Positions 1,802 through 39,246 of a stretch of DNA of 39,246 nucleotides are shown in pieces. Where the stretch lies: positions 1 to 39,246 of the forward strand of contig JACCUI010000247.1 of the NCBI GenBank assembly GCA_013811945.1, written 5' to 3'. The translations under genes and the position numbers were made by a program. Position 1 is the stretch's first letter, and each line of letters opens with the position of its first letter. Source of the stretch: Pyrinomonadaceae bacterium. Its GTDB lineage: Bacteria > Acidobacteriota > Blastocatellia > Pyrinomonadales > Pyrinomonadaceae. The notes beneath the pieces were generated by a model. That model worked only from the letters and a program-made list of their open reading frames with translations. It had not been told where the DNA came from and did not search any database.

Positions 1802-1840
1802 AATTCTTTAAACCTTATAGTCGCAGATTACACCAAGGAA

Positions 1841-1900: not shown

Positions 1901-1920
1901 CTTCCGGACTCAATCTAAAG

Positions 1921-3297: not shown

Positions 3298-3345
3298 CCC
3301 GATTCCTTAAAAACGTGAGTTGTTTATGGATGTCTCTTTCTCACT

Positions 3346-9541: not shown

Positions 9542-10529
9542 GCAGCCGGTAGTGGTAAGCGCGCGTGACGAAAACGAGCAATCGCAGTTCGTCGCGGAGC
9601 GGATCGAAGAATTGCGCGAGCAGGGCATCCCCCTCAGTGAAATCGCCGTGTTGTTTCGTTCCAGCTCCCACTCGTTCGACCTGGAAATAGAATTGGCCAA
9701 GCACGGAATTCCGTTTCGAAAATTTGGCGGCATCAGGTTCGCTGAATCGGCCCACATCAAAGACGCGTTGGCATTCCTGCGTGTCGTGGTAAAACCTTCC
9801 GACACGCTGTCCTGGTTTCGGGCGCTCAAACTGATAGACCATATTGGTGACGCGACGGTCTATCAGATACTCGATCATCTCGATGTGGAGCGAAAAGAGT
9901 TTAGATCCACGAGAACCAAAGAGGGTCTGTTTCGAAAACTACATCGGTTCCCGGCGCGGGCAAGCTACCAGGCCCAGCTGGGAAGGCTGGCGCGTGTTTT
10001 GACCAGCGTCCTTGAAAGCAAATCGCCGGGTGAGCAACTCTCGACCGTGCTGCGGTTCTATCGGCCCTTGTTAAAAACCAAGTACGACGACGCTCCCCGG
10101 CGCGGTCGCGACCTGGAACATTTGCAAGCCATCGCTAAGCGATACAAGACCTCTTCCAGGTTGTTGGATGACGTGGCGCTCGATCCTTCAGATGCAACGC
10201 AGAGAAGTGTTGCCAGGCGGAGCAGCGGTTTCGTTACGCTTTCGACAGTGCATTCGGCGAAGGGTCTGGAGTGGGACAGTCTGTTTGTGATTTGGATGAC
10301 GGACGGCTGGTTTCCCTCGTCCCGATTCCAGGACGAGTTCGATGATTTTGAGGAAGAGCGCCGGTTGCTATATGTTGCGACGACGCGGGCAAAGCGAGAC
10401 CTTCACTTCGTATATCCACTAAACGTCTACCGAGGCCCGGAGAGCGACTCCCTTCCGGCGCTCTCGCGGTTTCTGGTACCAATTTCACATACGATTCTCC
10501 CGCGTGCCTCGCTGCTCGGAGTTGAATAA
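9483..10529 (+). CDS. UvrD/Rep helicase, C-terminal part of the kinase-helicase gene
   Basis: This frame carries the remaining helicase region: a 2A domain beginning near QPVVVSARDENEQSQFVAERI, motif V FVTLSTVHSAKGLEWDSLF, and motif VI ERRLLYVATTRAKRDLHF. The ATG at 9483 lies inside sequence already used by the preceding frame, so it is not a believable natural start. The frames join if one base is removed, or two added, between 9518 and 9540, where T5 (9518-9522) and G5 (9534-9538) runs occur. The repaired gene, 7640-10529, would encode about 962 residues. As written, neither half is a complete helicase, because motifs I-IV and V-VI are separated. Confidence 0.85.
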   Translation: MKTSKKVTRSDCFSRIEGGEQPVVVSARDENEQSQFVAERIEELREQGIPLSEIAVLFRSSSHSFDLEIELAKHGIPFRKFGGIRFAESAHIKDALAFLRVVVKPSDTLSWFRALKLIDHIGDATVYQILDHLDVERKEFRSTRTKEGLFRKLHRFPARASYQAQLGRLARVLTSVLESKSPGEQLSTVLRFYRPLLKTKYDDAPRRGRDLEHLQAIAKRYKTSSRLLDDVALDPSDATQRSVARRSSGFVTLSTVHSAKGLEWDSLFVIWMTDGWFPSSRFQDEFDDFEEERRLLYVATTRAKRDLHFVYPLNVYRGPESDSLPALSRFLVPISHTILPRASLLGVE

Positions 10530-20643: not shown

Positions 20644-22006
20644 ACTTCTGCAAGCGGCGGTAGAGAGCGCTACGGCTCAAGCCCAGGGCTTCGGCGGCCC
20701 GATTAGCGTTTCCTTCGAAACGTGCAAGAGCTTTTTCAATCAGCAGGCGCTCCGCTTCTTCGAGGCTCATCTCTTCCAAACGCGCTGAGACACTGGCGTC
20801 TCGTGAGGTTTGTAGGGCCAGGTCAAAAGCCGTCACCGTCATGCCCGGGGTCATCAACACAGCCCGCTCAATAACGTGATCCAATTCTCGGACATTCCCC
20901 GGCCACGCGTGTTGGCGTAAAGCTTCGACTGCTTCACGGCTGAAGCCCTCAACCGGTCGCCGGTAATGCTCACGATGCTGCCGTAGGAAATGTTCGGCGA
21001 GCGGCGGAATGTCGTCGAGTCGTTCACGGAGCGGCGGCAGATGAACTTCGACCGTGTTCAAGCGAAACAACAGGTCTTGACGAAACCTGCCCTTGGCGAC
21101 GTCGACATTGAGATCAGAATTCGTAGCCGAGAGCACCCGCACGTCCACCTTTTGCGTTTTCGAAGAGCCGACTCGTTCAAACTCGCCGGTCTCCAGCACC
21201 CGCAACAGTTTCGGTTGCAGGTTGAGTGGGACGTTGGCGATCTCGTCGAGAAACAACGTGCCGCCATCGGCCAGTTCGAACCGCCCCACGCGATCCGTCT
21301 TGGCGTCGGTAAACGCGCCACGCACGTGCCCGAAGAGCTCGCTTTCGAAAACACCTTCGGCAAGCGCTCCGGCATTCAGAGAGACAAGGGGCTTTCGGGA
21401 GCGGGCAGAGTTAGCTTGCAGCGCTCGCGCGACCACCTCTTTGCCCGTACCGTTTTCGCCGGTGATCAAAACGTTGGCGTCGGCCGGGCCAATACGCTCG
21501 ACCAGCTTGAGCACCTCTTTCATCGCCGGAGATTCCGCAATTATTTTTGGTTGCTCGGCAGTGGTACCGGCGGCCGTGTCGCGCAGCGCCAGGTTCTCCG
21601 CCTCCAGTCGCTGGCCCCGCCGAAGGGCTTGCGCCAGTTCAACCTGAGTACGCAATACCGCTAACAATCGCGCGTTGTCCCAGGGCTTTTGAATGAAGTC
21701 GCGCGCACCGCGGCGCATTGCCTCGACTGCCAGATCCACATTCCCCCACGCGGTCATCACGACGATTGGGATAGTGGGATCGTGTGACTGAATTCTGCTC
21801 AGCAGCTCTAGTCCCTCGCTGCCGGAGGTGGTGTCGCGCGCGTAGTTCAGATCAATCAGGACGACGTCCAGTTCCTGCGAATCTATGGCCTTGAGCACGG
21901 CGGCGGGAGACGAGGCAGTTTGAATCTCGAAGCGCTCGCCTTTCAACAGCAGACGCAGCGCGGCAAGCACATCAGGTTGATCGTCAGCAATTAGAATTCT
22001 AGGCAT
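20630..22006 (-). CDS. NtrC-family sigma-54 response regulator
   Basis: 458 residues in the classic three-domain order. The receiver (1-120) has acidic Asp8/Asp9, phosphoacceptor Asp52, Thr85 and Lys107. The AAA+ sigma-54 interaction domain has Walker A GENGTGKE (183-190), the sigma-54 contact loop as GAFTDA (230-235; GAFTGA is the common form), Walker B LFLDEIA (251-257) and an arginine-finger region LLFRLN. The C-terminal Fis-type helix-turn-helix contains NRAAEALGLSRSALYRRLQ. It is the first gene of the two-component operon. Targets are unknown. The ADOP array starts just upstream of it on the same strand, so control of the array is possible, but I saw no clear -24/-12 box to support this. 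Confidence 0.94.
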   Translation of the reverse strand: MPRILIADDQPDVLAALRLLLKGERFEIQTASSPAAVLKAIDSQELDVVLIDLNYARDTTSGSEGLELLSRIQSHDPTIPIVVMTAWGNVDLAVEAMRRGARDFIQKPWDNARLLAVLRTQVELAQALRRGQRLEAENLALRDTAAGTTAEQPKIIAESPAMKEVLKLVERIGPADANVLITGENGTGKEVVARALQANSARSRKPLVSLNAGALAEGVFESELFGHVRGAFTDAKTDRVGRFELADGGTLFLDEIANVPLNLQPKLLRVLETGEFERVGSSKTQKVDVRVLSATNSDLNVDVAKGRFRQDLLFRLNTVEVHLPPLRERLDDIPPLAEHFLRQHREHYRRPVEGFSREAVEALRQHAWPGNVRELDHVIERAVLMTPGMTVTAFDLALQTSRDASVSARLEEMSLEEAERLLIEKALARFEGNANRAAEALGLSRSALYRRLQKYGLS

Positions 22007-22232: not shown

Positions 22233-24625
22233 TTATTCATAACGGAGCGCAATCAACGGATCGACCTTGGTCGCGCGTCGTGCTGGGAGATAGCAGGCCA
22301 GGAACGCGACTACGATCAGCACCAAAGAGACAGTTGCAAACGTACGGACATCGGTGGGTGTGACTCCGAACAGCATCGACGTCATCAGCCGGGTCAGCGC
22401 AAAGGCCCCTGCCAGTCCAGCGGCAGTGCCAATCAGAGTGAGCGTCATGCCATTTCTGACAATGAGCTTGAGGACGTCACTGGCCTGCGCGCCCAGGGCC
22501 ATGCGAATCCCAATTTCCTGTGTCCTTTGCGTAACGGCATACGACATGACGCCGTAAATTCCAACCGCCGCCAGCACCAACGCCAGGCCGGCAAATATCG
22601 CCAGTAGCAGCATATTAAAACGTCGCGCGGCGAATGAAGCAGCCGCGACCTCATGCATAGTTTGCACTTTAGTTAGCGGAAGCTGGGAATCGACTCTCCA
22701 GATCTGCTCCTTAACAGCTTGCGTCATACCTGAAGGGTCAGACTGGGTGCGAGCGACCAGGGTCATCCACCGCTTCCACGGCGCCGCTTGTGGATAGGGT
22801 GATAGAGTCCTGGTAGCTCCGGCAGATCGAGGCCGAAGTGTTTGACGTCACCCACAACGCCGACAATCGTGATCCAGTGTACTTCCGGGTCGCGTGCCCA
22901 GCGAATACGTTTGCCGAGCGGATCTTCGCCAGGAAAATACTGGTGCACCAGTGCCTCGTTGGCGATCCCCACCAACGGCGCTTTGTCAGCGAAATCCTGA
23001 GGCCCGAAGTCTCGTCCCGCCCGCAGCGGAATCTGCATCGTGCGAAAGTAGTCACCCAACACGCTGCGCGTTTCCAGACTCGGTTCATCACCGGACGCAA
23101 TTGGCGGACGACCGTCGATCAGGAAATTATGATCCAGGGAGTCGCCGCTAAGCGGCAATTCGCTAACCATTGCCGCCCGTACCCCCGGCAACGAATTAAT
23201 TCCTTCTAAAACCCGTTTACGAAACTGAGTCTGTTTAACAATTTCCTGGTAGCGCGCTTCAGGCAATTCAACTCTCATCGTCAGGAGCCGATCGGGATTG
23301 AAACCGGTTTCGATCGAGCGCAACTGCCAAAACGTCTTTATCAACAAGCCGGCAGCGACGAGTAGGATCAGCGCGACCGCCAGTTGGACGACGACAAAAG
23401 TGCTGCGCAGACGTTGTCTCGCCCCGCCGGTGGTAGCGTTGCGCCCACCTTCCTTGAGAGCTTCATTGACGCCGCGCGAGGCTGCCCAGGCTGGTAGCAA
23501 GCCGAAGATCACACCTGTGAGTAGCGATATTCCGAAGGTGAAGCCCAGAACTCGCCCATCCACTCCGATCTCCTGCAGGCGAGGTAAGTTTTCCGGCTTC
23601 AGCGCTACCAACAGACTTGTTCCCCAGACTGCGAGCAAGACTGCCACTGCGCCGCCGGCAACCGCGACCAATACGCTCTCCGTCAACAACTGTCTAATCA
23701 ATCGCCAGCGTCCAGCGCCGAGCGCTGCGCGAATAGTGAACTCGCGCTCACGCTCAGCGGCGCGCGCCAGCAGCAGGTTGGCGAAGTTGGCACAAGCGAT
23801 TAGCAGCACCAGACTCACCGCTGCAAACAAAACCAGGAGGGGGGTGCGAGACTGGCCCACGATGCGCTCGTGCAATGGAATCAGGACCGTGCTGCGGTTC
23901 TTATTGTCTGCCGGATACTGATTGGCAAGATTCTGATCAATTACCTGCATCTCAGAGCGCGCTTGTTCAACGCTCACTCCAGACGCCAGGCGGCCGAAGG
24001 TGCGAAGGAAATGCACGCCACGAAAATTAGCAGCAATGGGATTGGCCACGCGGACGGGAACCCAGGCCTCGGTGTTGTCCCGCGGACTGTCGAATCCCGC
24101 GGGCATGACTCCTATGATCGTATAAACATTGCCGCTGAGGGGCATCGTCTTGCCGATAATCTGTTGGTCACCGCCAAACTCCCGTTGCCATAATTCGTGG
24201 CTTAGCATGACGACGCGTGGGCCCCCTGTTTTGTCGTCGTCCGCAGTGATGAAGCGTCCCCGCTCTGGCTGCACACCGAGCATTTGAAAAAACCCACCGG
24301 TAACCATGCCTATCTGAAATTGCACGGGCTCGCCGCCGGCAGTGTAATCAAGTGGCTGCGCCACAAGACCGCCGAACTTAACGAAGGCGCGACTCTGCGC
24401 TTCGATATCCGCGAGGTCCGGAGCAGATTGATTGGAACGAAGGGTCATCAAGCGATCTGGCTCAAGATAGGGCAATGGAAGCAGCAAGACCGCATTGATC
24501 ACGCTGAAAATTGCGCTATTCACGCCGATGCCCAAAGCGAGCGTGATGATAGCGACTGCCGTAAAGCCCGGCCGCTTCAGCAAACTACGGACGCCATAGC
24601 GAATGTCCTTGATTAGTGTTTCCAT
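22233..24625 (-). pseudogene. ADOP-family orphan permease 1, frameshifted
   Basis: A MacB/FtsX-duplicated permease. The amphipathic N-terminus METLIKDIRYGVRSLLKRPG leads into the first helix. A periplasmic MacB-PCD-like domain follows, then the first FtsX unit with LLIACANFANLLLARAAERE and LGAGRWRLIRQLLTESV. The second half has its own PCD and FtsX units and ends [20 protein letters not shown]. The frame closes at 22763 after [14 protein letters not shown], while the rest continues in another frame from 22766. Inserting one base near 22781-22786 restores [17 protein letters not shown] and a single protein of about 797 residues, the normal size. This may be a real single-base deletion in a CC run or a sequence error. 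If real, the gene makes only the N-terminal 620 residues. Confidence 0.88.
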
Positions 24626-24778
24626 GGGATTGTCTCACTTTCTCAGTTGACAATCGGCTGCCAGAGCGGCGGTGGCCCATGCAATTAGCGAGCGTGAAAA
24701 CTTTCTCGAGTTTTCCATGAAACGGTTAATACCAACCGCCACGTGGTCGGTTACTCAACTTAGCTAAGCGCCTCACTT

Positions 24779-24966
24779 ACAGAACCGGGAGCGATAGCGA
24801 CCGCACTCAACTTCCACGAGCATTCCGCTGCGGATTAGAACAAACTCAGCATGTCGTTACGCTCACAAAATTTCTATTCTCGCGTTCTCTTCTCAAAGGA
24901 GATCTACCGGGCCGTTCAGTGATCATGGCGCTGGTTGAGTGCGGTCGCTACCGCTCCCGGTTCTGT
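24779..24966. repeat. inverted repeat pair (AGAACCGGGAGCG family)
   Basis: Arms 24779-24811 and 24934-24966 are 33 bp each with one mismatch; the core reads ACCGGGAGCGRTAGCGACCG. They enclose about 122 bp in the 419-bp spacer between ADOP 1 and ADOP 2. A related half-copy (GCGCGCGGTAGCGACCGG) occurs near 33325 in another ADOP spacer, so this is a dispersed repeat family. Confidence 0.85.
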
Positions 24967-25013
24967 ATTCCCCAGTTGAGAGACACTGGTTTACTGTTCC
25001 TTCTTTTTCAATC

Positions 25014-25044: not shown

Positions 25045-27480
25045 TCATTCATACCTGAGCGCCACCAACGGATCGACCTTCGCGGCTCGTCGCGCGGGGA
25101 CGTAACAAGCTACGAGCGTGATCAGAAATAGGCCAATCGCTACCACCGCAAAGGTGGTCTTGTCCGTTGCGGTTGTCTCGAACAAGAGAGTGACGATCAA
25201 TCGAGTCAGCCCGAACGAGGCAATCAGGCCTGCGCCCACTCCGAGCACGGCCAGAATGACTCCCTGCCTCACTACGAGCTTAAGCACATCGCGTTCTTGC
25301 GCACCGAGGGCCATGCGCACGCCGATCTCGTGAGTGCGCTGCAGCACGGAATAAGACATGACGCCGTAAATCCCCACCGCCGCCATCACCAGGGCGACAA
25401 ATGCAAAGATCGTCAGCAGCGTTGTGTTGAAACGCGATCGCGCCAGAGACTTAGCGAGTAAACCTTCCATCGTGCTCAACTCACCGACCGGCTGATCCGG
25501 ATCGAGGTTGCGAATTATGGACCGGGCGGCCGGCACAACGTTCGTTGCCTCGCCACGCACGCGCATCACGATTGTCATCGAGGAATATGTCAGCTCCGGA
25601 TGCGGCCAGTAGGCCATTGGCTCGACTTCCAAATCCAGGCCCATATGTTTGTGGTCGCCTACGATGCCGACAATCTCGGTGGGAACGTTTGCGTCTTTCA
25701 TATTGATCGTCACTCGCTTGCCGAGTGGATCCTCACCTGGCAGATGCTTCCGCATGAACGCCTCGTTTACGAGGACCACGTGGCGCTCTTCGGTAGCCTC
25801 TTGCGCCGTAAAGAGACGGCCTCGCTTCAGAGGGATCTGCATTACCTGGAAATAATTTGCATCAGTCACGCAGACCCCCGTAGTCAACTTCTGACCTGGA
25901 GGCAGCTTTGGCCGGCCCTCAATCTCCATCGACGTGCCGGAATATTGCCCGGCAAACGGAAGCGTGTTGATTGCCCCCGCGGCTTCCACTCCAGGCAGCG
26001 TCTGCACTTGCTGCACAGCTTGCTGGAAGAAACCAATGATCTTGCCATCGGAGTCGTACTTTCTCGTTGGCAAACTCACCCGCATCGTCACCAATTCCTT
26101 TGAATTGAATCCGGGATCTACTGATTGCAGTCGATTCAGGCTTTTCACGAGCAGGCCAGCGCCAACAAGGAGCACCAGGGCCAATGCCACCTGGGTAACA
26201 ACAAAGAGGTTTCGAAACCGATGACTTCGCGCGCTGCCTCCAATATTCTTTCCGCCTTCCTTGAGCGAATCTTGCAGATCAAAGCGCGTAGCTTCCAGAG
26301 CTGGTACCAGCCCGAAAACAATGCCGGTAAGCAGCGACACGCCGAAGGTAAAGGCCAGCACGGGCAGGTTGACGCGTACATCACGAAGATCCATCAGCGC
26401 AGGGGGGCTAAGAGCGATGAGCGCTTTCGTTCCCCACCAGGCCAACAAGAGACCAAGAGCGCCGCCCACCGCCGACAGCAGCACGCTCTCAGTAAGCAGT
26501 TGCCGCGCGATACGCCAACGACTGGCGCCGAGCCCGGCTCGCAAGGCAATCTCTTTTTTCCGAGCGGAGGCGCGGGCCAACAGCAGGTTTGCTACGTTGG
26601 CGCACGCAATCAGCAACACAAAGCCAACCGCCCCCAGCAGAATTAGTAGCGGCCGTCTGATGTCGCCGGTAAATTGCGTGCGGAGGGGAACGACATTCAC
26701 ACCCCATAGAGTATTGAACTCGGGATACTGTTTTTCGAGTCTGGCTCCAATCAGGTTCATTTCCTGCTGCGCCTGTGCGGGCGTAACACCAGGCCGCAGT
26801 CTCGCCACCGCGGATGCGAACCGCCCCCGGCGCTGGCGCAATTCATTTGAGGCCTCCCAGGGTGACCAAATCTCGGCGGACTTGCGAGTCATGGAGCCCT
26901 TGGGGACGTGCCAGCTAAAGTCCGCCGGCAAGACACCGATGATTGTGTTCTGCCGATTGTTAAGAGTGACTTGGCGACCGATTACGCTGGGGTCTCCGCC
27001 AAAGCGGCGCTGCCACAGTCCGTGGCTGATTACGACGACGTTCGGTTGCCCGGGTTTACCCTCATCCGGCGCGAACGTCCGGCCTTGAATAGCACTCACA
27101 CCCAGGAGTGGAAAAAGATTGGTAGTGACGATCTGTCCTGGCACTTCTTCGGGCTCACCATCGCCCGTGAGATTTGTAGTGAGATCAAAGAACGCAGCCA
27201 TGTCGGCGAAGACGTTGTTCTGGTCCTTCCAGTCGAAGAAGTTACCCAAATTGATTACATTCTGATCGGTCTTACCGCCCTGCTTCTTCTCCCACACGAT
27301 GGCCAGTCTGTCGGCGTCTGCGTAGGGCAAGGAGCGCAGCAACACCGCGTTGACCACGCTAAAAATCGCGCTGTTTGCTCCTATCCCCAGCGTCAAAGCA
27401 ACGATCGCGACTAACGTCACTGTCGGGTTCTTTAACAACATTCGCGCTCCGAAGCGCAGGTCCTGCAATAGGGTTTGCAT
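25045..27480 (-). CDS. ADOP-family orphan permease 2
   Basis: An intact 811-residue permease. The cytoplasmic amphipathic start MQTLLQDLRFGARMLLKNP is followed by the first helix (about 21-45), a periplasmic PCD-like domain, and three helices around 275-400 with LLIACANVANLLLARASARK and the coupling stretch LRAGLGASRWRIARQLLTES. The second repeat starts near residue 435 with another helix, then a second periplasmic domain. The C-terminal FtsX unit has QRTHEIGVRMALGAQERDVLKLV, ending [20 protein letters not shown]. An AAGGAG ribosome site lies 9 nt before the ATG. No nucleotide-binding partner is adjacent, which defines the orphan class. Whether ADOPs export, extract lipoproteins or signal is not established. 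Confidence 0.93.
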   Translation of the reverse strand: MQTLLQDLRFGARMLLKNPTVTLVAIVALTLGIGANSAIFSVVNAVLLRSLPYADADRLAIVWEKKQGGKTDQNVINLGNFFDWKDQNNVFADMAAFFDLTTNLTGDGEPEEVPGQIVTTNLFPLLGVSAIQGRTFAPDEGKPGQPNVVVISHGLWQRRFGGDPSVIGRQVTLNNRQNTIIGVLPADFSWHVPKGSMTRKSAEIWSPWEASNELRQRRGRFASAVARLRPGVTPAQAQQEMNLIGARLEKQYPEFNTLWGVNVVPLRTQFTGDIRRPLLILLGAVGFVLLIACANVANLLLARASARKKEIALRAGLGASRWRIARQLLTESVLLSAVGGALGLLLAWWGTKALIALSPPALMDLRDVRVNLPVLAFTFGVSLLTGIVFGLVPALEATRFDLQDSLKEGGKNIGGSARSHRFRNLFVVTQVALALVLLVGAGLLVKSLNRLQSVDPGFNSKELVTMRVSLPTRKYDSDGKIIGFFQQAVQQVQTLPGVEAAGAINTLPFAGQYSGTSMEIEGRPKLPPGQKLTTGVCVTDANYFQVMQIPLKRGRLFTAQEATEERHVVLVNEAFMRKHLPGEDPLGKRVTINMKDANVPTEIVGIVGDHKHMGLDLEVEPMAYWPHPELTYSSMTIVMRVRGEATNVVPAARSIIRNLDPDQPVGELSTMEGLLAKSLARSRFNTTLLTIFAFVALVMAAVGIYGVMSYSVLQRTHEIGVRMALGAQERDVLKLVVRQGVILAVLGVGAGLIASFGLTRLIVTLLFETTATDKTTFAVVAIGLFLITLVACYVPARRAAKVDPLVALRYE

Positions 27481-28063: not shown

Positions 28064-30472
28064 TCATTCGTAACGAAGCGCTATCAACGGATCCACTTTA
28101 GTCGCTCGACGCGCGGGCAAGTAACAGGCTATTAAGGCAGTAACAAGTAAGCAGAGAGATACGCTTACGAAGGTAAACCCGTCGGTTGGGTTGACACCAA
28201 ATAGCAAAGTTGTAATCAACCGCGTCAACGCAAAAGCGCCAAGCAACCCCGCTCCGATACCAATCAAAGCGAGGACCATTCCACTTCTTAAAACAAGTTT
28301 CAGGACGTCGCTCATCTGCGCGCCCAGAGCCATGCGAATGCCAATCTCCTGTGTGCGCTGAGTAACGTAATAAGCAGTGACGCCGTAGATGCCAATCATT
28401 GCCAGAAGCAGTGCGATGGCAGCGAACGCGCTTAACAGCAGCATTGGCGTGCGTCGGGGCGCGACCGAAGTGGCCAGCACGTCATTCATCGTCCTGACGT
28501 TAAAAACTGGTATTCCTTTATCCAGCGAACGCATCTCGTTTCGCATCGCCGCAGCAATGTTTGTTGGGTCACCGTTAGTGCGTATTACGAGTGACATGCC
28601 GGTCCAACCCGAGTCCTGAGCATAGGGCACATACATCTGCTGGCCTGGGTCGGCGTCCAGTGACTGCTTTGTATCGCCCACCACGCCTACGATCTCACGT
28701 GGAGATTCTTCGTCGCGCCAGATCGTGATGCGCCTGCCGATAGGGCTTTCACCAGGCCAAAGATGACGCGCCATCGTCTCGTTAACGATGAGCACTTTCG
28801 CCGTTTTTTCAGTGTCCTGAGCGGTGAAAGCTCTCCCACTTACTACTGGAATTTGCAGAGTGTGAAAGTAGTCGGGGGTCGCCACCAGATAAGCGGCCCC
28901 GTCGGCTTCTTCCGGAGAGGCCGGGCGGCCTTCTCGGATATAACCGCGCCCAACACTAAAAGTGTCGCCGCCGAGGGGCAGGCTGAGCACAGCGCCGGCG
29001 GACTGCACCCCGGGCAGCAGACTCAGGCGTTCTACCGCCTGATGAAGCAACTGAACACGAGGCTCACCTTGCGGGTACTTCGCGAATGGAAGCGAAACCC
29101 GCACCGTGAGGACCTGGTCTGGATTGAATCCGGCGCTAACGTCGCGCAGGCGTATGAAGCTTTTGATAAGCAATCCCGCGCCCACCAACAGCATGAAAGA
29201 GAGCGCGATCTCGGAGACCATCAGCAAACTGCGAAGCCGGTTGCGATGTCCACTGGCACCGCTGCGCAGGCCTTCTTTCAATCCCTCGTTCAGATCAGGA
29301 CGCGAGACCTGGAGGGCGGGCGCCAGACCGAACACAAGACCGGTGATCACAGTCAGTGCGAGCGTGAACGCAAGTACGCGTGTGTCGGGAGCGATTTCAT
29401 CGAACCGCGGCGTGTTGGGTGGACTTAAGGCAATCAGTAACTTCGTCAGCCATATGCTCAGCCATAAACCAATCGCGCCGCCGACGATTGAGAGCAGCAC
29501 GCTTTCGGTTAGTAGCTGCCGAACTATGCGCCACCGGCTCGCCCCCAGGGCCGTGCGTACTGCAATCTCTTTTTGCCGTGCGGTGGCTCGCGCGAGCAGT
29601 AGGTTCGCAACATTCGCGCAGGCGATCAGGAGGACGAATGCAACGGCGCCCAACAACACGAGCAGAGGGGAACGCATCTCGCCGACCAATCGTTCTCGAA
29701 GGTTCGTCAGCCTGACATTCCAGCCGCTATTCGTCTCGTTATAAGCCTGCGCCAGCCGCAGGTTGATAGTATCCATTTCCGCCTGTGCTTGGGGTAGCGA
29801 CACGCCCTGCTTGAGACGAGTGACCACGCTAAGGTACCGGTTGTCACGCCGCTCAGCAGCGGCGTCGATCGGAAAGGGTACCCACAGTTCTGATTGGGCG
29901 GGGTAGTCGAAGCCGGGAGGCATGACGCCGACTACGATGGTGTGCTTGCCGCCCAACAACAACGTGGTCCCCACCACATTTTGATCGGCTCCAAAGCGGC
30001 GCTGCCATAAGCCATGGCTGAGCACGACGACTGGCTCCCGGCCTTTTTGCGAGTCATCGGGTCCAAGCGCGCGTCCCTTCATGGCGTTGGTGCGGAAGAG
30101 GGGAAAGAAGTCCGCGCTGACTCCCGTGCCGCGCACACGCTCCGTCTCATCGCCGCTAACGATCAGAGAACCGCCGGCGACAAATCCGGCCATGCGCTCG
30201 AACACCTGATTCTGATTTTTCCAGTCTGCGAAATCAGGCACGGACATGTTGCTCTCCGTGATACCTTTAGCCGGGTTGATACCATCGAACGAAACAATCT
30301 GCTCCGATTCGGGAAAGCGCAGCGGGCGCAACAAGACAGCGTTAACGGCGCTGAACATCGCGCTATTGGCTCCGATTCCCAAAGCGAGGGTGAGCAGCGC
30401 GACCGCCGTAAAGCCTGGCCGCTTCAACAGGCTGCGCACGCCGTAGCGAATGTCTTTGAATAGTGTTTCCAT
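28064..30472 (-). CDS. ADOP-family orphan permease 3
   Basis: 802 residues from the Met at 30472. The open frame runs 21 codons further, but METLFKDIRYGVRSLLKRPG is the conserved family start, a GAGGTG ribosome site sits before it, and the extra N-terminus is Lys/Ser/Asn-rich translation of heptad repeat DNA. The duplicated layout is visible: first FtsX unit with LLIACANVANLLLARATARQ and VRTALGASRWRIVRQLLTESV; second unit with [23 protein letters not shown]; end [20 protein letters not shown]. Its N-terminus is closest by eye to ADOP 1, suggesting a relatively recent duplication. A 262-bp spacer upstream and a 583-bp one downstream suggest it may be transcribed alone. Confidence 0.93.
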   Translation of the reverse strand: METLFKDIRYGVRSLLKRPGFTAVALLTLALGIGANSAMFSAVNAVLLRPLRFPESEQIVSFDGINPAKGITESNMSVPDFADWKNQNQVFERMAGFVAGGSLIVSGDETERVRGTGVSADFFPLFRTNAMKGRALGPDDSQKGREPVVVLSHGLWQRRFGADQNVVGTTLLLGGKHTIVVGVMPPGFDYPAQSELWVPFPIDAAAERRDNRYLSVVTRLKQGVSLPQAQAEMDTINLRLAQAYNETNSGWNVRLTNLRERLVGEMRSPLLVLLGAVAFVLLIACANVANLLLARATARQKEIAVRTALGASRWRIVRQLLTESVLLSIVGGAIGLWLSIWLTKLLIALSPPNTPRFDEIAPDTRVLAFTLALTVITGLVFGLAPALQVSRPDLNEGLKEGLRSGASGHRNRLRSLLMVSEIALSFMLLVGAGLLIKSFIRLRDVSAGFNPDQVLTVRVSLPFAKYPQGEPRVQLLHQAVERLSLLPGVQSAGAVLSLPLGGDTFSVGRGYIREGRPASPEEADGAAYLVATPDYFHTLQIPVVSGRAFTAQDTEKTAKVLIVNETMARHLWPGESPIGRRITIWRDEESPREIVGVVGDTKQSLDADPGQQMYVPYAQDSGWTGMSLVIRTNGDPTNIAAAMRNEMRSLDKGIPVFNVRTMNDVLATSVAPRRTPMLLLSAFAAIALLLAMIGIYGVTAYYVTQRTQEIGIRMALGAQMSDVLKLVLRSGMVLALIGIGAGLLGAFALTRLITTLLFGVNPTDGFTFVSVSLCLLVTALIACYLPARRATKVDPLIALRYE

Positions 30473-30734: not shown

Positions 30735-33176
30735 TCATTCATATGTCAAGGCCACCATCGGGTCTACCTTTGAAGCCCGACGCGCCGGCAGGTAGCATGC
30801 GATCAGCGCCACCGTTGTGAGCAACACCGCTATAGCCGCGTAAGTTAGCGGATCCGCCGTGCTAACCCCGTAGAGCAAGCTCGCCATCATCCGCGTTAGG
30901 GCGAATGCCACACCCAGCCCGATCGCAACGCCCAACAATGTCAATGTCATTCCTTTCCGTAACACGAGGCCGAGTATGTCGTGCCGTTGCGCGCCCAAGG
31001 CTACCCGAACGCCGATCTCTTGCGTATGCTGGACGACGAAGTAAGCCAGTACCCCGTAAATCCCAAGTGTCGCTAGCAGCAGAGCGAGAGCTGCGAAGAT
31101 CGTCAGCAACGTCATGCCCAGACGCCGCGATGCGGTCTCTTCCCCGAGCACCTCTTCCATGGTCCGAATATTTGAGATGGGTTGGGCGGGATCAACCTGG
31201 TGAATCTCGTTACAAGCAGCGGCTACAATGCTCAACGGATCGACCGTTGCGCGGATTACCAGATCGCGAGGGGAGTACCACTGCTGATCTTTGATTTGCC
31301 CGTAAGGTATATACATCTCAGCCTTGACTGGCTCGTCAACACCCATCTGACGCACATCACCAACCACGCCGACAATCGTTCTCCAGGGAATGTCGTCCTG
31401 TGGATCGCCCAGTTTAAAACGCTTGCCTACGGCATCTTCGCCGGGCCAATACTGCCGCGCCATCGTTTCGTTGACGATGGCCGCAGGCATCGCCCGTTCA
31501 TCATCACCGTCGCTGATAGAACGCCCTCTCAGCAGCGGGATTCCAATTGTCTTGAGATAGTCAGCGCTGACCTGCCTATGATTGGCGTCATAAGAGAGGC
31601 CTTCTGCGGACGCCCGTTCGACCGTGCGACCCTCAGGGAAGAAGCCGCTCGTACCGCCTTTCCAGGCCAACGGGATGCTGGTGGCATAACCCGCTGAGAC
31701 AACTCCCGGTAGGGACCTCACGCGCTCCAACACTTGCTTATAGAAAGCTGCACGCTGCGGTTGCTCCGGATACTTGTTGCGTGGCAGCACAGTGCGCAAA
31801 GTCAAAACATTTTCCGGTCGCAGGCCCGAATACTGATCCCGCAACTTGAGAAAGGTCTGAATGAGCAGCCCGGCACCGACCAGCAACACCAACGCCAACG
31901 CCACTTCAGAGACCACCATGGCGCTCCTCAATCTGTTTCCTCCGGCGTTCAGCCCGGTGCGTCCGCCGCCCTGTTTCAGTGCTCCGTTGAGATCTATCTT
32001 CGATGCTTGAAAGGCAGGAACCAAGCCGAAGACTACGGCTGTTGACAAGGCCAGCAGGAGGGTAAAGCCAAGCACTTGCAGATCCAGGTTGAGTTTGGTT
32101 GAGAGGGCCAGACCATCTGGAATCAGTCGTTGTAGGAACGCGAAACTCACCGAAGCTATTAACAATCCGCAAACTGCACCAGCGGTTGCCAACAACAGGC
32201 TCTCAACCAGCAACTGACGGACGATACGCACGCGGCTTGCTCCGAGGGCCGCTCTCACCGCGATTTCACGTTTACGGCTGGCTGCGCGGGAGAGCAATAG
32301 ATTGGCAATATTCGCGCACGCGATCAGGAGTACGAATCCGACGGCGACTAGCAATACGAGGAGGGGCCGGCGCACGTCTCCCGCTAATTGGTCACGCAGC
32401 GGTATCACGAAAGCACCAAGCCGTCCCGCCTGGTCCGGATGATCGTGAGCAATACGTTGCTGAATCATCTGAATATCCGCATTCGCCTGTGCGAGGGTGA
32501 CGCCGGGCCTTATGCGCGCAATAACAGTTAGGAAATGACTACCCCGCTGGGCCAATGTTTCAGAGGTGAAAGCTATCGGCACCCAAAGTCCAATGCGGCT
32601 TTCCATGAACTGAAAACCAGCCGGCATTACGCCGACGACCGTATACCGCTCGCCATTGAGCAGCACCTCCCGACCTACGACACTACGTTCACCGCCGTAA
32701 CGCTGCTGCCAGAGACTGTAACTAATCATGGCAACTTTGTTCGCTTCCGGCTTGTCTTCTTCCGGCAGGATGACGCGGCCTAAAACTGGCGCGACACCCA
32801 GTAGTCCGAAGAAGTTGGCGGTCACGCCATAAGCCTCAATCTTTTCCGGTTCTCCGTCACCGGTGAGGTTGAAGCTGCGCTGGTCGAAGGTAGCCATGTC
32901 CTCAAAGACCTGATTCTGTGCTTTCCAATCGGCATAATTGGCCGGTGCCGGCGTGTTGCGTGGGAAACCGGCAAAAGCAGCATCCTCCCATACCATCACC
33001 AGGCGATCCGGCTCGCGGAAGGGCAACGTTCGCAACAACACGGCGTTGACGACGCTGAAGATTGCCGTGTTCGCGCCAATGCCAAGCGCGAGGGTGAGAA
33101 CTGCAATACAGGTGAACCCTGGATGCTTCAACAGAGAGCGGACGCCGTAGCGAATGTCTTTGAGCAGTGATTCCAT
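30735..33176 (-). CDS. ADOP-family orphan permease 4
   Basis: 813 residues from the Met at 33176, preceded by a GGAAGGAA ribosome site. The nine extra codons upstream come from the spacer. It starts MESLLKDIRYGVRSLLKHPG, has a first FtsX unit with LLIACANIANLLLSRAASRK and VRAALGASRVRIVRQLLVES, and a second unit with QHTQEIGVRVALGAQRHDILGLV. It ends [20 protein letters not shown], where LTYE replaces the LRYE of the other copies. Residues around ALKQGGGRTGLNAGG mark the cytoplasmic linker between the two halves. It is divergent enough from its neighbours that recent gene conversion across the whole gene is unlikely. Confidence 0.93.
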   Translation of the reverse strand: MESLLKDIRYGVRSLLKHPGFTCIAVLTLALGIGANTAIFSVVNAVLLRTLPFREPDRLVMVWEDAAFAGFPRNTPAPANYADWKAQNQVFEDMATFDQRSFNLTGDGEPEKIEAYGVTANFFGLLGVAPVLGRVILPEEDKPEANKVAMISYSLWQQRYGGERSVVGREVLLNGERYTVVGVMPAGFQFMESRIGLWVPIAFTSETLAQRGSHFLTVIARIRPGVTLAQANADIQMIQQRIAHDHPDQAGRLGAFVIPLRDQLAGDVRRPLLVLLVAVGFVLLIACANIANLLLSRAASRKREIAVRAALGASRVRIVRQLLVESLLLATAGAVCGLLIASVSFAFLQRLIPDGLALSTKLNLDLQVLGFTLLLALSTAVVFGLVPAFQASKIDLNGALKQGGGRTGLNAGGNRLRSAMVVSEVALALVLLVGAGLLIQTFLKLRDQYSGLRPENVLTLRTVLPRNKYPEQPQRAAFYKQVLERVRSLPGVVSAGYATSIPLAWKGGTSGFFPEGRTVERASAEGLSYDANHRQVSADYLKTIGIPLLRGRSISDGDDERAMPAAIVNETMARQYWPGEDAVGKRFKLGDPQDDIPWRTIVGVVGDVRQMGVDEPVKAEMYIPYGQIKDQQWYSPRDLVIRATVDPLSIVAAACNEIHQVDPAQPISNIRTMEEVLGEETASRRLGMTLLTIFAALALLLATLGIYGVLAYFVVQHTQEIGVRVALGAQRHDILGLVLRKGMTLTLLGVAIGLGVAFALTRMMASLLYGVSTADPLTYAAIAVLLTTVALIACYLPARRASKVDPMVALTYE

Positions 33177-33188
33177 GGGTTCCTTCCT

Positions 33189-33222
33189 ATTGCCCATTTC
33201 CAATTGCAGTTTCCGATTGGCG
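33189..33222. repeat. ATTGCC-type heptads upstream of ADOP 4
   Basis: ATTGCCC, ATTTCCA and ATTGCAG are consecutive (33189-33209), then ATTGGCG follows after 6 nt. They start 13 bp upstream of the ADOP 4 start codon. Confidence 0.55.
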
Positions 33223-33449
33223 AGTTCCGCTTGTTGATAATCTAAAGATAAGACCCCGTCGCTGCCAAGTTCGTGGCAAAATGAGAAGTCTTGCTCAACT
33301 CCGAACAGTCACTCAATACGGAAGCGCGCGCGGTAGCGACCGGATGTGGAGCACTCAACTTGCCGTTCCATCTGACCAGGGTCGCATCGGGCTATTGTTT
33401 CTTAACCACCAACCTTGAGTACTGGTATCGGGTTCGCCACCACTAACCC

Positions 33450-33466
33450 AGGCGGGCTGCCCGCCT
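33450..33466. repeat. short perfect hairpin at the break of an ADOP relic
   Basis: AGGCGGG-CTG-CCCGCCT is a perfect 7-bp stem with a 3-nt loop. It lies exactly where homology of the adjacent ADOP relic ends, so it may be an inserted REP-like element or mark a deletion junction. Confidence 0.7.
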
Positions 33467-33560
33467 CAAGGCGAACGCAAGGAGGGCAACGAGGGTGAAG
33501 CCCGGACTCTTCCATAACTTATGAAAGCCGTAGCGTAAGGTCCTCCCAGAGTGTTTGCAT
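33467..33560 (-). pseudogene. N-terminal relic of another ADOP permease
   Basis: Minus-strand translation from ATG 33558-33560 begins MQTLWED. With one base shifted it continues LRYGFHKLWKSPGFTLV and ALLAFAL. This is the ADOP N-terminal signature plus the start of the first helix (compare MQTLWQDLRYGIRMLAKSPG in the next copy). Homology stops after about 31 codons at the hairpin 33450-33466; nothing of the remaining roughly 780 residues is found. It documents loss of an eighth family member from this array. Confidence 0.8.
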
Positions 33561-33610
33561 GTCGACTTCTCAAGATTGCCGATTTCCGATTGCCAGATAC
33601 CGGGTCTCCA

Positions 33611-33713
33611 ATCTCAAGTCTCAGGGTTCTCGATCTCAAGACTTGAGACTTCAGAGATCTTAGATTTGGAATCTCAGATCCTAGGTCTCAGATAATCTCA
33701 GATTTCCAATTGC
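33611..33713. repeat. degenerate TCTCAAG/TCTCAGA heptad tract
   Basis: Repeated units such as TCTCAAG, TCTCAGG, ACTTGAG, ACTTCAG and TCTCAGA occur on both strands through about 100 bp, largely 7 nt apart with slips. It is related to the CTCAGAT arrays at 30584 and 38967. With the relic, the hairpin and a half-copy of the 24779 repeat family, it fills the 693-bp spacer. Confidence 0.65.
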
Positions 33714-33833
33714 GCAGTGTTCCGGATTGCAGATCACCCTTCACTCGAACCCGAACTCAGCTGTTGCGGTTACAACCTGCCTTCAAATCGGAAGTCGCCC
33801 AATCCCCAATCGGCGATTCCGGGGAACAGCTTT

Positions 33834-33868
33834 GCCAATTCGAAATCGGTAATTCGAAATTCGAAATT
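33834..33868. repeat. heptad repeat at the 3' end of ADOP 5
   Basis: Five gapless 7-nt units, GCCAATT, CGAAATC, GGTAATT, CGAAATT and CGAAATT, end directly beside the stop codon of the permease gene at 33870. Confidence 0.8.
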
Positions 33869-33869
33869 C

Positions 33870-36332
33870 TCATTCGTAGCGCAGTGCCACTAGCGGGTTA
33901 ACCTTTGTCGCTCGTCGAGCTGGAACCAGACAGGCGACAAAGGCAACCGCAGCCAGCAACAAAGGAACGAGAATGAATGTCGTCACGTCGTAGGCGCTAA
34001 CTCCAATCAAGACGGACGACAACACTCGCGCCATTGCCAGCGACAACACAAACCCGATCACCACTCCGATTGACGCCATCTTCATTCCCTCACTTGTGAT
34101 CAGCTTCAGCACATCGGCTCGCCTGGCACCGAGCGCCATGCGAATACCAACTTCACGCGTGCGTTGGGAGACGATGTAGGCCATTACGCTGTAGAGTCCT
34201 ACTGCGGAGAGCAGCAACGCCACTACCCCAAACCCAAGAGCAAGAATTGCTGCCATGTTGGGACCCCAGAGTGCCCAGGTCATGTGCTCGTCCATCGTCT
34301 TGATCGCAAATAGCGGGATGCGGCGATCAAGCGCTTGCACTTCGTTACGAATGGGACCAACCAGACTGCTCGGATCGCCGGTGGTACGCACCATCAGCAT
34401 CATGCCGCTGGCGCCTCGCTGGGCCATCGGGGAGTAGTAGTACGGCTTGGGATCTTCAGCCAGGGTGCGGTACTTGCCGGTTCTAACCACGCCCACAACT
34501 TCAATCGCATCGGGACTGTTTGGACCGATGAAGATGCGCTTTCCAATTGCGCTCTCGCCCGGCCAAAGCATTTGCGCCATTCTTTCGTTAATAATAACCA
34601 CGCGCGGCACACCCTTCCGATCTCGCTCCTCAAAATCGCGTCCGGCGATCATGGAAATCTGCAATGTCTGGAAGTGGCCCGGACTGACTACGTTGTTCAT
34701 GATGTTGCGGCCGGGGCTGCCCGGCGCCAGTGTTTCGCCCTCTTTCAGTATTGGCCCGCTTGAATTGGAGCTATCGCTGAGCGGTACCAAACGCCCTACA
34801 CTCGCTGCCTGTACTCCGGGCAAGCTGCCGGCGCGTTCGATCAGCAGCGTGAAGAAGTTCTTTGTCCGTTCTTCGTCATAGCCCATAAGCTCGGGATTCA
34901 ACGAAACCAGCAGCACCCCCCGGGCTGCGAAACCCGGATCCATCTTCTGCGCGTTGCGAAAACTCTTGATGAAGAGTCCGCCACAGACGAGGACCACGAG
35001 GGACAAGGCCACCTGGGCCACCACGAGCGAGTTTCGCAATGTAAACCGGCGACGTTTTCCTCCCTGTCCGGCGTTCGCATCGCCCTTCAACACGGGGACA
35101 ATCTCTGGATTTGAAGCATGCCAAGCGGGCGCCAGCCCGAAGATCATTCCGGTAGCGAGCGAAACAATTAAAGTGAAGAACAGGGCGCGCGCATCCAGCG
35201 CAAAGAGATCGTTGAGCACGTTGTAGGGCAAGACGGGAATGAAGCCTTGCATCAAACCCGTCACCCAATACGCCAGCAACAGTCCGAACCCACCCCCGAG
35301 CACTGAGAGCAACATACTTTCTGTCAGCAGTTGTCGAATCAAACGCGCGCGACTGGCGCCGAGCGCGAGACGGACTCCAATCTCTTTTCGACGCGAGGCC
35401 GCCCGCGCCAGCAGCAGATTCGCCACGTTCGCGCAGGCGATCAGCAGAATGAGACCTGTGATCGCCAGCGCGATGGCCGCCCCACTCTTTATGACCATCG
35501 CGGCCTCATCCCAACGTCCGTCAAGCTCCGTCCGGACCACTACGCGTGTTGAGCTCGCTCGCTCATTTGGATACGACTGATTCAAGCGTTGCGCTATTGC
35601 AGACAGCTCGGCTGAGGCTTGGGCAAGCGTAACGCCAGGCTTTAGTCGCCCTATCAGGTTCATCCAATGGCTGCCGCGATCGCTTAACAACTCGGGCGCG
35701 CGCATGAGTTCTTCGGCCATCATCATTGGCGCCCAAAAGTCCATGGACAGACCAAACTTTGTGCCCTTGAATGATTCGGGCGCCACACCGATTACAGTGT
35801 ACGCGCGGCTGTTCAGCTCGATCGTCTTGCCGACAATTTTCGGATCAGAGGCTAGGCGACGCTGCCAGAGGCTATGACCTATAACGACGACCGGAGCCGC
35901 TCCCAGCGCCTTGTCTTCGTCGGCCGCAAATCCGCGGCCCAAAGCCGGCTGCACCCCTAACGCATCGAAGTAGTTACCACTCACCAACTGGCCCCAGATC
36001 ACATCGTTCTGGTCCCCGGTGCTGATCGCTGCCTGGGCCATGTCTTCGGCAATCAGACCGGCAAAGACCGTGTTCTGCTCGCGATAGTCCTTAAAGTCCG
36101 GATACGAGAAGCTGTCGGTCGTACCGCGATCGTCGGTGGCCTCGAAAGGCCGGACCATCTGATCAGGTTCGGGCACAGGCAAAGGGCGGAAGATAAACGC
36201 ACTGACGCCACTGAAGATCGCTGTATTCGCGCCGATTCCCAGCGCGAGCGCGAGGACTGCGACGATTGTGATGCCCGGCGATTTCGCCAGCATGCGAATC
36301 CCGTAACGAAGGTCTTGCCAGAGTGTTTGCAT
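33870..36332 (-). CDS. ADOP-family orphan permease 5
   Basis: 820 residues from the Met at 36332 (MQTLWQDLRYGIRMLAKSPG). The frame runs 18 codons further upstream without a better start, and a GGAG-type site lies before this Met. The first FtsX unit has LLIACANVANLLLARAASRR and VRLALGASRARLIRQLLTES. The cytoplasmic linker carries a basic GGKRRRFTLRNS. The second unit has [24 protein letters not shown], and it ends [20 protein letters not shown]. It is the most divergent copy by eye, with its own periplasmic sequence, but its N-terminus is the closest match to the relic at 33467-33560. Confidence 0.93.
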   Translation of the reverse strand: MQTLWQDLRYGIRMLAKSPGITIVAVLALALGIGANTAIFSGVSAFIFRPLPVPEPDQMVRPFEATDDRGTTDSFSYPDFKDYREQNTVFAGLIAEDMAQAAISTGDQNDVIWGQLVSGNYFDALGVQPALGRGFAADEDKALGAAPVVVIGHSLWQRRLASDPKIVGKTIELNSRAYTVIGVAPESFKGTKFGLSMDFWAPMMMAEELMRAPELLSDRGSHWMNLIGRLKPGVTLAQASAELSAIAQRLNQSYPNERASSTRVVVRTELDGRWDEAAMVIKSGAAIALAITGLILLIACANVANLLLARAASRRKEIGVRLALGASRARLIRQLLTESMLLSVLGGGFGLLLAYWVTGLMQGFIPVLPYNVLNDLFALDARALFFTLIVSLATGMIFGLAPAWHASNPEIVPVLKGDANAGQGGKRRRFTLRNSLVVAQVALSLVVLVCGGLFIKSFRNAQKMDPGFAARGVLLVSLNPELMGYDEERTKNFFTLLIERAGSLPGVQAASVGRLVPLSDSSNSSGPILKEGETLAPGSPGRNIMNNVVSPGHFQTLQISMIAGRDFEERDRKGVPRVVIINERMAQMLWPGESAIGKRIFIGPNSPDAIEVVGVVRTGKYRTLAEDPKPYYYSPMAQRGASGMMLMVRTTGDPSSLVGPIRNEVQALDRRIPLFAIKTMDEHMTWALWGPNMAAILALGFGVVALLLSAVGLYSVMAYIVSQRTREVGIRMALGARRADVLKLITSEGMKMASIGVVIGFVLSLAMARVLSSVLIGVSAYDVTTFILVPLLLAAVAFVACLVPARRATKVNPLVALRYE

Positions 36333-36482: not shown

Positions 36483-38912
36483 TTACTCATAACGAAGTGC
36501 AATCAAGGGATCGACTTTCGTTGCGCGTCGCGCCGGGATGTAGCAGGCGAGCAGCGCCACCGTCGTTAGCAGCAACGTAATGACCGCGAAAGTTACCGGA
36601 TCCGTCGTGCTCACGCCGTAGAGCATCGTTACCAGCAATCGAGTCAGGCCGAGGGCGGCGACCAGACCAAGCGCGACTCCTCCCAGCGCCATCTTCATTC
36701 CGTGAATTAAGACGAGCCGAAGCACGTCGCTGCGTTGCCCGCCCAGGGCGAGGCGAATCCCGAGTTCGTGTGTCCGCTGGCCAACGAGATACGAAATGAC
36801 ACCGTAGAGTCCGAGGCTCGCCAGCAGCAGCGCCACCACGGCAAAGGCGTCGAGCAGGATCATCGAGAAGCGACGGTCCGCCAGCGTGCCGGCGATCACC
36901 TCATTCATCGTTTGAGGTCTGGAGATGACATTCTGTTGGTTGTGGTTTTGTACGACGCGGCGGATCGAATCGAAAGGTACTGCTGCCGGCCCGTCGGCAG
37001 CCGCTATTACTCCCACGCCCGCAGCCAATCCCCTCATTGCGGTGTCCGAAAACTGCCTGAAGGGTTCGTAGAGCTGAGCTTGAAGCGTCTGCGCTTCGTC
37101 CGAATCGAGACTCCACTGCTTCACATGCCCAACCACCCCGATGATCTGCTGCGGCTCCTCTCCCTCCTGAAGAATTCGCTTGCCGATGGGGTCAGCATCG
37201 CCAAAGTGTTTGCGGGCAAAGACCTCATCGATCACCACGACGGGTTGAGATCGTTCATCATCCTGGTCGGTGAAGAAGCGGCCCTGCTTGAGTGGAATGC
37301 CCATGGCCGTCAGATAACCGGCCTCGACCCTGTACACCACTGCCATGTGCATTTCGCTCTGACTAGCCGGTTTGGGCTGGCCTTCGAGCCAGAAGAAAAG
37401 GTCGTCTTCGCCCTGCAAGGGAACTGCACCTGCCGAGAATGAAACTGCCCGGACACCCGGCGTCGAGCTGAGCTGATTACTGAGATCGCGCAAGTTGGCG
37501 CGAACCACTTCCGGGCTGGCCGTCATCATTGACGGAGAAAGACTGAGTCCGAAGGTCAACACATTGTCCGGACGAAACCCCGGATCGACGTTCCAGAGCG
37601 CGCTGAGACTGCGAATCATCAACCCCGCGCCTATCAATAGGACCACCGCCAGCGCCATCTCGATCGCGACCAGGACGCCCTGCGCGCGTCCGCGCCCGCT
37701 ACTCGCCCCGCGCCCGCCTTCCTTGAGTGTTTCTGATAAACGCCACTTCGAAGTCCTAAGCGCCGGAGCGAGGCCGGCCAAAATCCCTGTGAGCAGCGAA
37801 ACGGCCACCGTGAAAATCATGACGCGGGCGTCCAGCCCAACCTCCGTCGCGCGGGGTAGCGTGGTGGGCAGCACAGCGAGCGCGGCATGTGTGCCCCAAC
37901 CCGCGACCACCAACCCCAGTCCGCCGCCGGCAAGGGCCAGCAGCATGCTCTCGGTGAGAGATTGGCGGAGCAAGCGCCACCGGCCAGCGCCCAATGCGGC
38001 GCGAATGGCAAATTCGCGGGTCCTGCCGGTCGAGCGCGCGAGCAGGAGGTTACTGACATTAACGCACGCAATTAGCAGCACGAACCCGACCGCGCCAAGC
38101 AACATCCACAGGATCGGACCGATGTCCCCCACCATCCTTTCCTTTAGAGGGACGATCTTTGAGCCATTGCCTTTATTGGTAGCGGGATATGCAGTGGCTA
38201 GATCCCCCATCACTCTGTTGAGATCGGCCTGCGCTTGCTCGATGGTGACGCCTGGCTTGACTCGCCCAATCCCGTGAAGACCCAAAGCGACGGCACGGTT
38301 CCGCAGCGCCGGGTTATTCCACTGACCGATGGGCACAAACACATCGACAGTGCGATAGAGACTGAAGCTCGCCGGGAGCACACCGATAATGGTGTAGTTC
38401 TTGTCATCCAAGGTCAGGCCCTTCCCCACAACATTCTCCGCAGCACCAAACTTGCGCTGCCAAAGGTCCGCGCTGATCACGGCAACCGGTGCGGCGCCGG
38501 GCTCATCTTCCCCTGGCGCAAAGGTTCGCCCCAGCGCGGGCTTCACCTCGAGCACAGAGAAAAGGTCGGCTGAGGTCAATCTGGCGTTGACGCGCTCTGC
38601 TTCGCCTGTGCCTATCAGACTGAAGCCGAACCCGCGCGAAATGGCCATGGAGGAAAATGTCCGGTTCTCTTTTTGCAGGTCACGAAAATTAGGGTACGGG
38701 ATAGCGCCTGTTTCGAAATTCGGCTTGCTCTGGTGGAGCGTCACAAGCTGGTCAGGCTGCGGAAAGGGCAGCGGATTGAGTAGCACGCCGTTGACCACCG
38801 AAAAGAGCGCTACGTTGGCGCCGATGCCCAGCGCGAGCGTCGCCACAACTACAGAGGTGAAGCCGGGATTTTTCAGTAACATTCGCAGACCAAGTCGTAG
38901 GTCTTGAAACAT
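36483..38912 (-). CDS. ADOP-family orphan permease 6
   Basis: An intact permease of 809 residues. A strong AGGAGGGA ribosome site sits 5 nt before the ATG. It starts MFQDLRLGLRMLLKNPGFTS, slightly shorter than its neighbours. The first FtsX unit has LLIACVNVSNLLLARSTGRT and IRAALGAGRWRLLRQSLTES, with V-N-V-S replacing the usual A-N-V-A. The second unit has QRTHELGIRLALGGQRSDVLRLV, and it ends [20 protein letters not shown]. It has no ATPase partner. The spacer downstream, to ADOP 5, is the shortest in the array (150 bp), so these two are the best candidates for co-transcription. Confidence 0.93.
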   Translation of the reverse strand: MFQDLRLGLRMLLKNPGFTSVVVATLALGIGANVALFSVVNGVLLNPLPFPQPDQLVTLHQSKPNFETGAIPYPNFRDLQKENRTFSSMAISRGFGFSLIGTGEAERVNARLTSADLFSVLEVKPALGRTFAPGEDEPGAAPVAVISADLWQRKFGAAENVVGKGLTLDDKNYTIIGVLPASFSLYRTVDVFVPIGQWNNPALRNRAVALGLHGIGRVKPGVTIEQAQADLNRVMGDLATAYPATNKGNGSKIVPLKERMVGDIGPILWMLLGAVGFVLLIACVNVSNLLLARSTGRTREFAIRAALGAGRWRLLRQSLTESMLLALAGGGLGLVVAGWGTHAALAVLPTTLPRATEVGLDARVMIFTVAVSLLTGILAGLAPALRTSKWRLSETLKEGGRGASSGRGRAQGVLVAIEMALAVVLLIGAGLMIRSLSALWNVDPGFRPDNVLTFGLSLSPSMMTASPEVVRANLRDLSNQLSSTPGVRAVSFSAGAVPLQGEDDLFFWLEGQPKPASQSEMHMAVVYRVEAGYLTAMGIPLKQGRFFTDQDDERSQPVVVIDEVFARKHFGDADPIGKRILQEGEEPQQIIGVVGHVKQWSLDSDEAQTLQAQLYEPFRQFSDTAMRGLAAGVGVIAAADGPAAVPFDSIRRVVQNHNQQNVISRPQTMNEVIAGTLADRRFSMILLDAFAVVALLLASLGLYGVISYLVGQRTHELGIRLALGGQRSDVLRLVLIHGMKMALGGVALGLVAALGLTRLLVTMLYGVSTTDPVTFAVITLLLTTVALLACYIPARRATKVDPLIALRYE

Positions 38913-39117: not shown

Positions 39118-39246
39118 TTACTCGTAACGAAGCGCGACCAAGGGATCGACCTTCGTAGCCCGCCGCGCTGGGATGTAACAAGCGAGCAGTGCCACGAAGA
39201 GTAAGCCCACTGAGACGATTGCATAGGTCATGACATCAGTCGGCGT
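39118..39246 (-). CDS. ADOP-family orphan permease 7, C-terminal end only
   Basis: The last 42 codons of a seventh copy, cut by the window edge. Translation gives [20 protein letters not shown] and then the family terminus [20 protein letters not shown], with TAA at 39118-39120. The array therefore continues beyond the window. Confidence 0.9.

Follow-up and report, generated by a model that had tools for sequence, protein, structure and literature searches.

Remnant of an ADOP permease gene, very probably lost by deletion, at the edge of a dispersed palindrome in a draft genome of the Pyrinomonadaceae

In REP/RAYT systems, GTAG-tagged palindromes flank transposase genes (PMC3733652); the part of that paper drawn on here names GTAG repeats for other phyla, whereas the only mention of Acidobacteria concerns a group of Y1 transposases. 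Class 3 TnpA-Y1 systems, according to the portion of a second source used here (PMC6006769), belong to Planctomycetes, Acidobacteria and Proteobacteria and have their transposase genes flanked by secondary structures; about 600 copies of such Y1-associated structures are reported for Solibacter usitatus. A literature search returned no study on ADOP gene loss or on deletions ending at REP edges (the ADOP query mostly drew papers sharing the word stem 'adop'). Here we describe what is very probably one step of gene loss caught in a duplicated row of ADOP permease genes: a short stub of a gene that we call X, of which an intact version is kept in related species.

The stretch of DNA analysed (39,246 nucleotides, hereafter the window) corresponds to C180, one of the 300 contigs in a draft genome of 3.98 Mb that is 67% complete. 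A profile search reveals a row of ADOP-family permease genes (NCBIfam TIGR03434) on its minus strand. The features are collected in Table 1, for which we placed the starts of A2, A3 and A4 within longer listed frames. A0 is a single open frame in two genomes of the same genus, G012 and G006; in the window a one-base gap relative to G012 splits the frame, so that A0 may be a second copy of the array in decay, or else the split may be due to a sequencing error. Elsewhere in the same genome (C60:16192-16783, L213) another ADOP frame is found in pieces (profile positions 1-34, 36-66 and 50-196), so that ADOP decay is not limited to the array of the window. Directly downstream of the row, on the same strand, a PAS/histidine-kinase-type ORF and a sigma-54 response regulator are encoded (19237-22006); these are possible regulators of the row. 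On the plus strand a single ORF (7640-9541) combines a protein kinase domain (residues 12-274) with a UvrD/REP helicase N-terminal domain (323-589), and is overlapped by the ORF at 9483-10529.

Table 1. Features of the ADOP row and of its spacers in the window. Positions are those of the window.
Feature	Position	Strand	Remarks
A0	22233-24625	-	ADOP gene split in two frames
Second inverted-repeat element of the same REP-like kind	24778-24967		A0-A1 spacer; both 34-nt arms present, 97% complementary; arm pattern on both strands
A1	25045-27480	-	ADOP gene
A2	28064-30472	-	ADOP gene
A3	30735-33176	-	ADOP gene; TIGR03434 1016 bits; downstream neighbour of X; orthologues adjoin X in G012 and G006
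Clear arm of dispersed GTAG-bearing inverted-repeat (REP-like) element	33308-33360		blastn matches across own genome; arm pattern at 33323-33343
Middle and degenerate second arm of the REP-like element, both inferred	33361-33449		Leads into the palindrome; by-eye comparison with other copies
Perfect palindrome AGGCGGG-CTG-CCCGCCT	33450-33466		At the joint; core of dispersed palindromic repeat
Stub of ADOP gene X	33467-33560	-	First 31 codons; one extra base breaks the frame after codon 8
A4	33870-36332	-	ADOP gene; TIGR03434 953 bits; upstream neighbour of X; orthologues adjoin X in G012 and G006
A5	36483-38912	-	ADOP gene
C-terminal end of another ADOP gene	39121-39246	-	TIGR03434 profile positions 762-803

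The stub lies in the spacer of 666 bases that separates A4 from A3. Translated on the minus strand from 33560, it reads MQTLWED(L), shifts by one base and then continues as LRYGFHKLWKSPGFTLVALLAFAL without interruption to 33467. All six ADOP proteins of the window match this spacer in tblastn, with best E-values of 1.2e-6 for A4, 9.0e-6 for A2, 9.3e-6 for A3, 1.6e-5 for A0, 0.002 for A1 and 0.003 for A5. The real scores were compared with about 1,000 dinucleotide shuffles of the spacer for each of A1-A5 and for the intact X protein of G012: none of the 1,000 shuffles reached the score of A1, A2, A3, A4 or G012 X, and 1 of 999 reached that of A5. For the G012 protein the match amounts to 51.2 bits (E 5.9e-12), against a shuffle maximum of 26.2. 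After masking of the ADOP genes, the same six queries (A1-A5 and G012 X) match the window at E <= 0.01 only in the stub and in distant permease ORFs at about 3.3-5.4 kb. The sequence-only reading had recognised in 33450-33560 an ADOP N-terminus with a one-base shift, and had proposed a comparison of full ADOP proteins with the spacer; the outcome of that comparison is significant and, by the shuffles, beyond chance. Its count of the stub as an eighth ADOP gene is also right provided that the split A0 is counted once, since A0, A1-A5 and the C-terminal end at the contig border make seven. An Rfam scan of 33000-34000 yielded one match, which at 21.4 bits is far under the gathering score of 95 and was dismissed as chance.

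The spacer was further searched as DNA in 59 genomes (own genome included), of which 26 gave matches. Besides the own locus, two strong matches span the full stretch from 33467 to 33560, namely in G012 (81 of 94 positions identical, 86%) and in G006 (80 of 94, 85%). Matches of other relatives concern parts of the stub stretch and are weaker (mostly 71-82% identity). The starts of the five paralogues in the window share 52-67 positions with the stub over 93-94 nt, thus at most 71%, with A2 being one base out of register there.

In G012 a contig of 6,850 bp (C631) carries, in order, the 5' end of A3 (match 5-401), the whole of X (725-3157) and A4 (match 3278-5996), while the remainder of the A3 orthologue is located at one end of contig C61. 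The X gene of G012 encodes 810 amino acids without a stop and scores 1031.9 bits with TIGR03434 (cut-off 622.3). In G006 the gene is spread over two contigs: A3 is followed by a C-terminal part of X of 426 amino acids on C375, and an N-terminal part of 428 amino acids is followed by A4 on C575, with an exact overlap of 133 bp between the two contigs within X. Both relatives thus keep X between the same two neighbours, and the proposal that a paralogue was lost from the array, which came with the suggestion to look for the full gene in related strains, is supported. By this synteny and by its DNA identity to both intact genes, the stub is a pseudogene of an ADOP permease (TIGR03434) orthologous to X. 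A working ADOP gene it is not: the full-length frame with MacB_PCD and FtsX is absent, 31 codons are left and the frame is broken. The remnant in the window is incapable of encoding a permease, and no function is evident for it.

A DNA search of the own draft genome (67% complete) with X did not reveal the rest of the gene at any other place. In this search the stub is the sole match of orthologue grade, the others being short or at paralogue level (64-74%). Among the best matches listed (sorted by E-value), X occurs at high identity in 2 of the 16 genomes of the genus, G012 and G006; its absence from the others may reflect either loss there or a gain of X in this group. In the direction of the genes, the array runs A4-X-A3-A1-A0 in G006. 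In G012 it runs A4-X-A3, followed on the next contig by another gene (at most about 49% identical to A1-A5 or X) and then by A0. The ADOP array turns over among relatives.

Differences between the stub and the intact genes are concentrated at third codon positions. With the extra base omitted, the stub differs from G012 X at 3, 0 and 9 first, second and third positions (9 of 12 third), and from G006 X at 3, 0 and 10 (10 of 13 third); within the same stretch G012 and G006 differ from each other at 2, 0 and 9. Most of the divergence hence seems to date from the period in which the gene was still coding, and X was probably lost recently relative to the split of these species, as far as these few sites suggest.

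At its other end the stub stops abruptly. DNA homology to the intact X genes starts at 33467, the exact edge of the palindrome, and extends over X up to codon 31, so that the earlier placement of the end of homology at AGGCGGG-CTG-CCCGCCT was accurate to the base (palindrome 33450-33466). The palindrome is not part of gene X; its core is a dispersed repeat. With at most one mismatch the core is present at 8 places in the genome (the one in the window included), against 1 per strand for a backward control. A longer pattern with CACCCC...TGGG flanks gives 29 matches (16+13) at 28 places, against 0 for the control; the copy in the window is truncated at one end and does not reach the length needed to be counted here. 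Its left flank (with changes) and core are present, and X begins in place of the right flank. Allowing for up to 3 mismatches, the longer pattern matches in 9 of the 16 genomes of the genus and is without matches in 7, including G006. Across the genus the stems of the CACCCCA..CGGGCTGCCCG..TGGG palindrome covary (AAG/CTT, ACG/CGT, AGC/GCT and AGT/ACT). The DNA of 33300-33475 folds no more stably than its shuffles do (z -0.44), and consequently we claim no structure past the short palindrome.

The palindrome adjoins a larger element with a GTAG-bearing arm, in which GTAG is set within GCGGTAGCGACCGG. The arm pattern is matched 103 times in the own genome and 295 times in G012, against 0 for the control in each case, and it has no matches in G015. 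Several copies of the palindrome are nested in an arm of a GGTCGCTACC-[palindrome]-GCTCGCGGTTCTG element, and other copies occur without that arm. Both the arm (103) and the palindrome (29) are short palindromic repeats in many dispersed copies, as REPs of the GTAG type are, and the window element with the arm at 33308-33360 is REP-like. A repeat finder reports no pair of long inverted arms for this element (33308-33449).

The A3-X spacer of G012 holds a related element (39-nt arms, 90% complementary), and that of G006 only AT-rich inverted repeats according to the repeat finder. Given that G006 also is without the palindrome family, the element does not go back to a common ancestor of the three genomes. 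In the spacer element of G012 (L066 465-643) both arms carry GGTAGCCAATGG in place of the common GGTAGCGACCGG and are still complementary, as if arms were kept alike.

In two relatives a Y1 transposase gene is surrounded by a cluster of arms, 8 of them in G005:C36 (1800-4200, L243) and 4 in G011:C80; these regions were picked for their nearby listed arms from 11 and 13 Y1 matches in the respective genomes. The Y1 gene of G005:C36 with its 8 arms looks like a REPtron for this GTAG repeat family. The own genome has 4 Y1 transposase matches. No arm is found near the two that are above the cut-off, and a fragment below the cut-off, on C179, is accompanied by two arm-like 14-mers at distances of up to about 330 bp.

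Taken together, the stretch is very probably the 5' end of the ADOP permease gene X, which once was situated between A4 and A3 and would have been removed by one deletion of about 2.4 kb starting in the palindromic element of the spacer. The deletion would have taken 2,340 bp of X together with part of the spacer, from inside the palindromic element between A3 and X as far as codon 31, and its ends would have been joined without evident homology; the single event, its direction and its extent on the spacer side are what we infer here. X is present, whole, in the same place in G012, and over two overlapping contigs in G006; the stub is closest to these two genes. The sequence-only reading had suggested a repeat-mediated deletion or insertion at the hairpin. 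The dispersed nature of the hairpin core and the related spacer element of G012 agree with this in part; an alignment of the window with X of G012 and G006 reveals no evident repeat or microhomology across the joint, and recombination between two repeat copies is thus not indicated.

For the end at the palindrome, there is about an even chance that it is coincidental and that an ordinary illegitimate deletion just happened to end there. The joint without evident repeat or microhomology fits such an event, and in a spacer that consists partly of repeats an end inside one of them is not improbable; nonetheless the end is found at the very edge of a 17-nt palindrome, and palindromes promote deletions in bacteria. 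A causal role of the palindrome is a rather doubtful reading: a Y1 transposase or a hairpin nuclease might have cleaved the REP-like element in the spacer, or replication might have stalled at the edge of the stem, after which the end would have been joined to codon 31. If such causation were general, elements of this kind in ADOP arrays (another is present in the A0-A1 spacer, Table 1) would be deletion hot spots driving the birth and death of paralogues.

It might also be argued that the insertion came first, with a palindromic element landing at codon 31 of X and the segment of the gene toward A3 being lost later. Such elements are dispersed and look mobile, and the spacer of G006 is without one. 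Yet this order of events requires two steps against one, and the related element of G012 resides in the A3-X spacer rather than in X, so that the element of the window may have pre-existed; a deletion from the repeat into the gene is therefore favoured over a fresh insertion into X, which we regard as unlikely.

Decidedly more improbable is that the joint is an assembly artefact, X being whole or broken by the frameshift alone and the assembler having jumped at the repeated palindrome. The joint at the exact edge of a repeat core that occurs at 8 places speaks for such a jump, and the draft (300 contigs, 67% complete, judged from its assembled sequence) leaves some room for it, or for a moved X in the missing third. 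Against this, the stub has its own frame break independent of the joint, no contig with the remainder of X was found, and the genes on either side stand in the order that is expected.

An origin of the stub as a stray 5' fragment of an ADOP gene that was captured at, or copied into, this place is hardly credible given the whole X between the same neighbours in two relatives, and this explanation was dropped. In its favour, the own genome has another lone ADOP-like 5' end, fused to a metallo-beta-lactamase gene. The fusion product is a 365-aa protein of the metallo-beta-lactamase fold on contig C95 (L212 69-1166, minus strand), which opens with the ADOP-like 5' end MQTRWQDPRDGARMWLKRP. Its first part was also retrieved in the own-genome search with X, by 33 nt that are 91% identical to the beginning of that gene, and gives a tblastn E-value of 1.5e-4 to A1. 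Similarity of the protein to its five best relatives sets in only at residue 15-34, and four of these begin differently where their starts were compared; it may possibly have captured an ADOP start.

That paralogues decay and are lost is nothing out of the ordinary, and the value of the present case resides in the clarity of the joint. By placing the break of the very probable deletion of X at a dispersed palindrome, it offers a countable test of repeat-promoted deletions in acidobacterial gene arrays. The role of the permeases is not clarified by the stub.

Compared with known systems, X of G012 is a full-length member of the ADOP family of duplicated permeases (NCBIfam TIGR03434; Pfam MacB_PCD and FtsX) with both MacB_PCD and FtsX domains, whereas the window copy is limited to the first 31 codons with a broken frame and is a pseudogene remnant, not a member. 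With the GTAG-tagged REP elements and REPtrons, as presented in the part of PMC3733652 used here, the repeats share their nature of short dispersed palindromes; the GTAG in the arm and, in two relatives, the clustering of arms around a Y1 gene may correspond to the tag and the transposase association of those systems. They differ in that the arms belong to an inverted-repeat element of larger size, one arm of which sometimes contains a second, nested palindrome, and in that no intact Y1 gene adjoining arms was seen in the own genome of the window. The class 3 TnpA-Y1 systems, in the portion of PMC6006769 referred to above, include the same phylum as found here, and their transposase genes flanked by secondary structures may be a further likeness.
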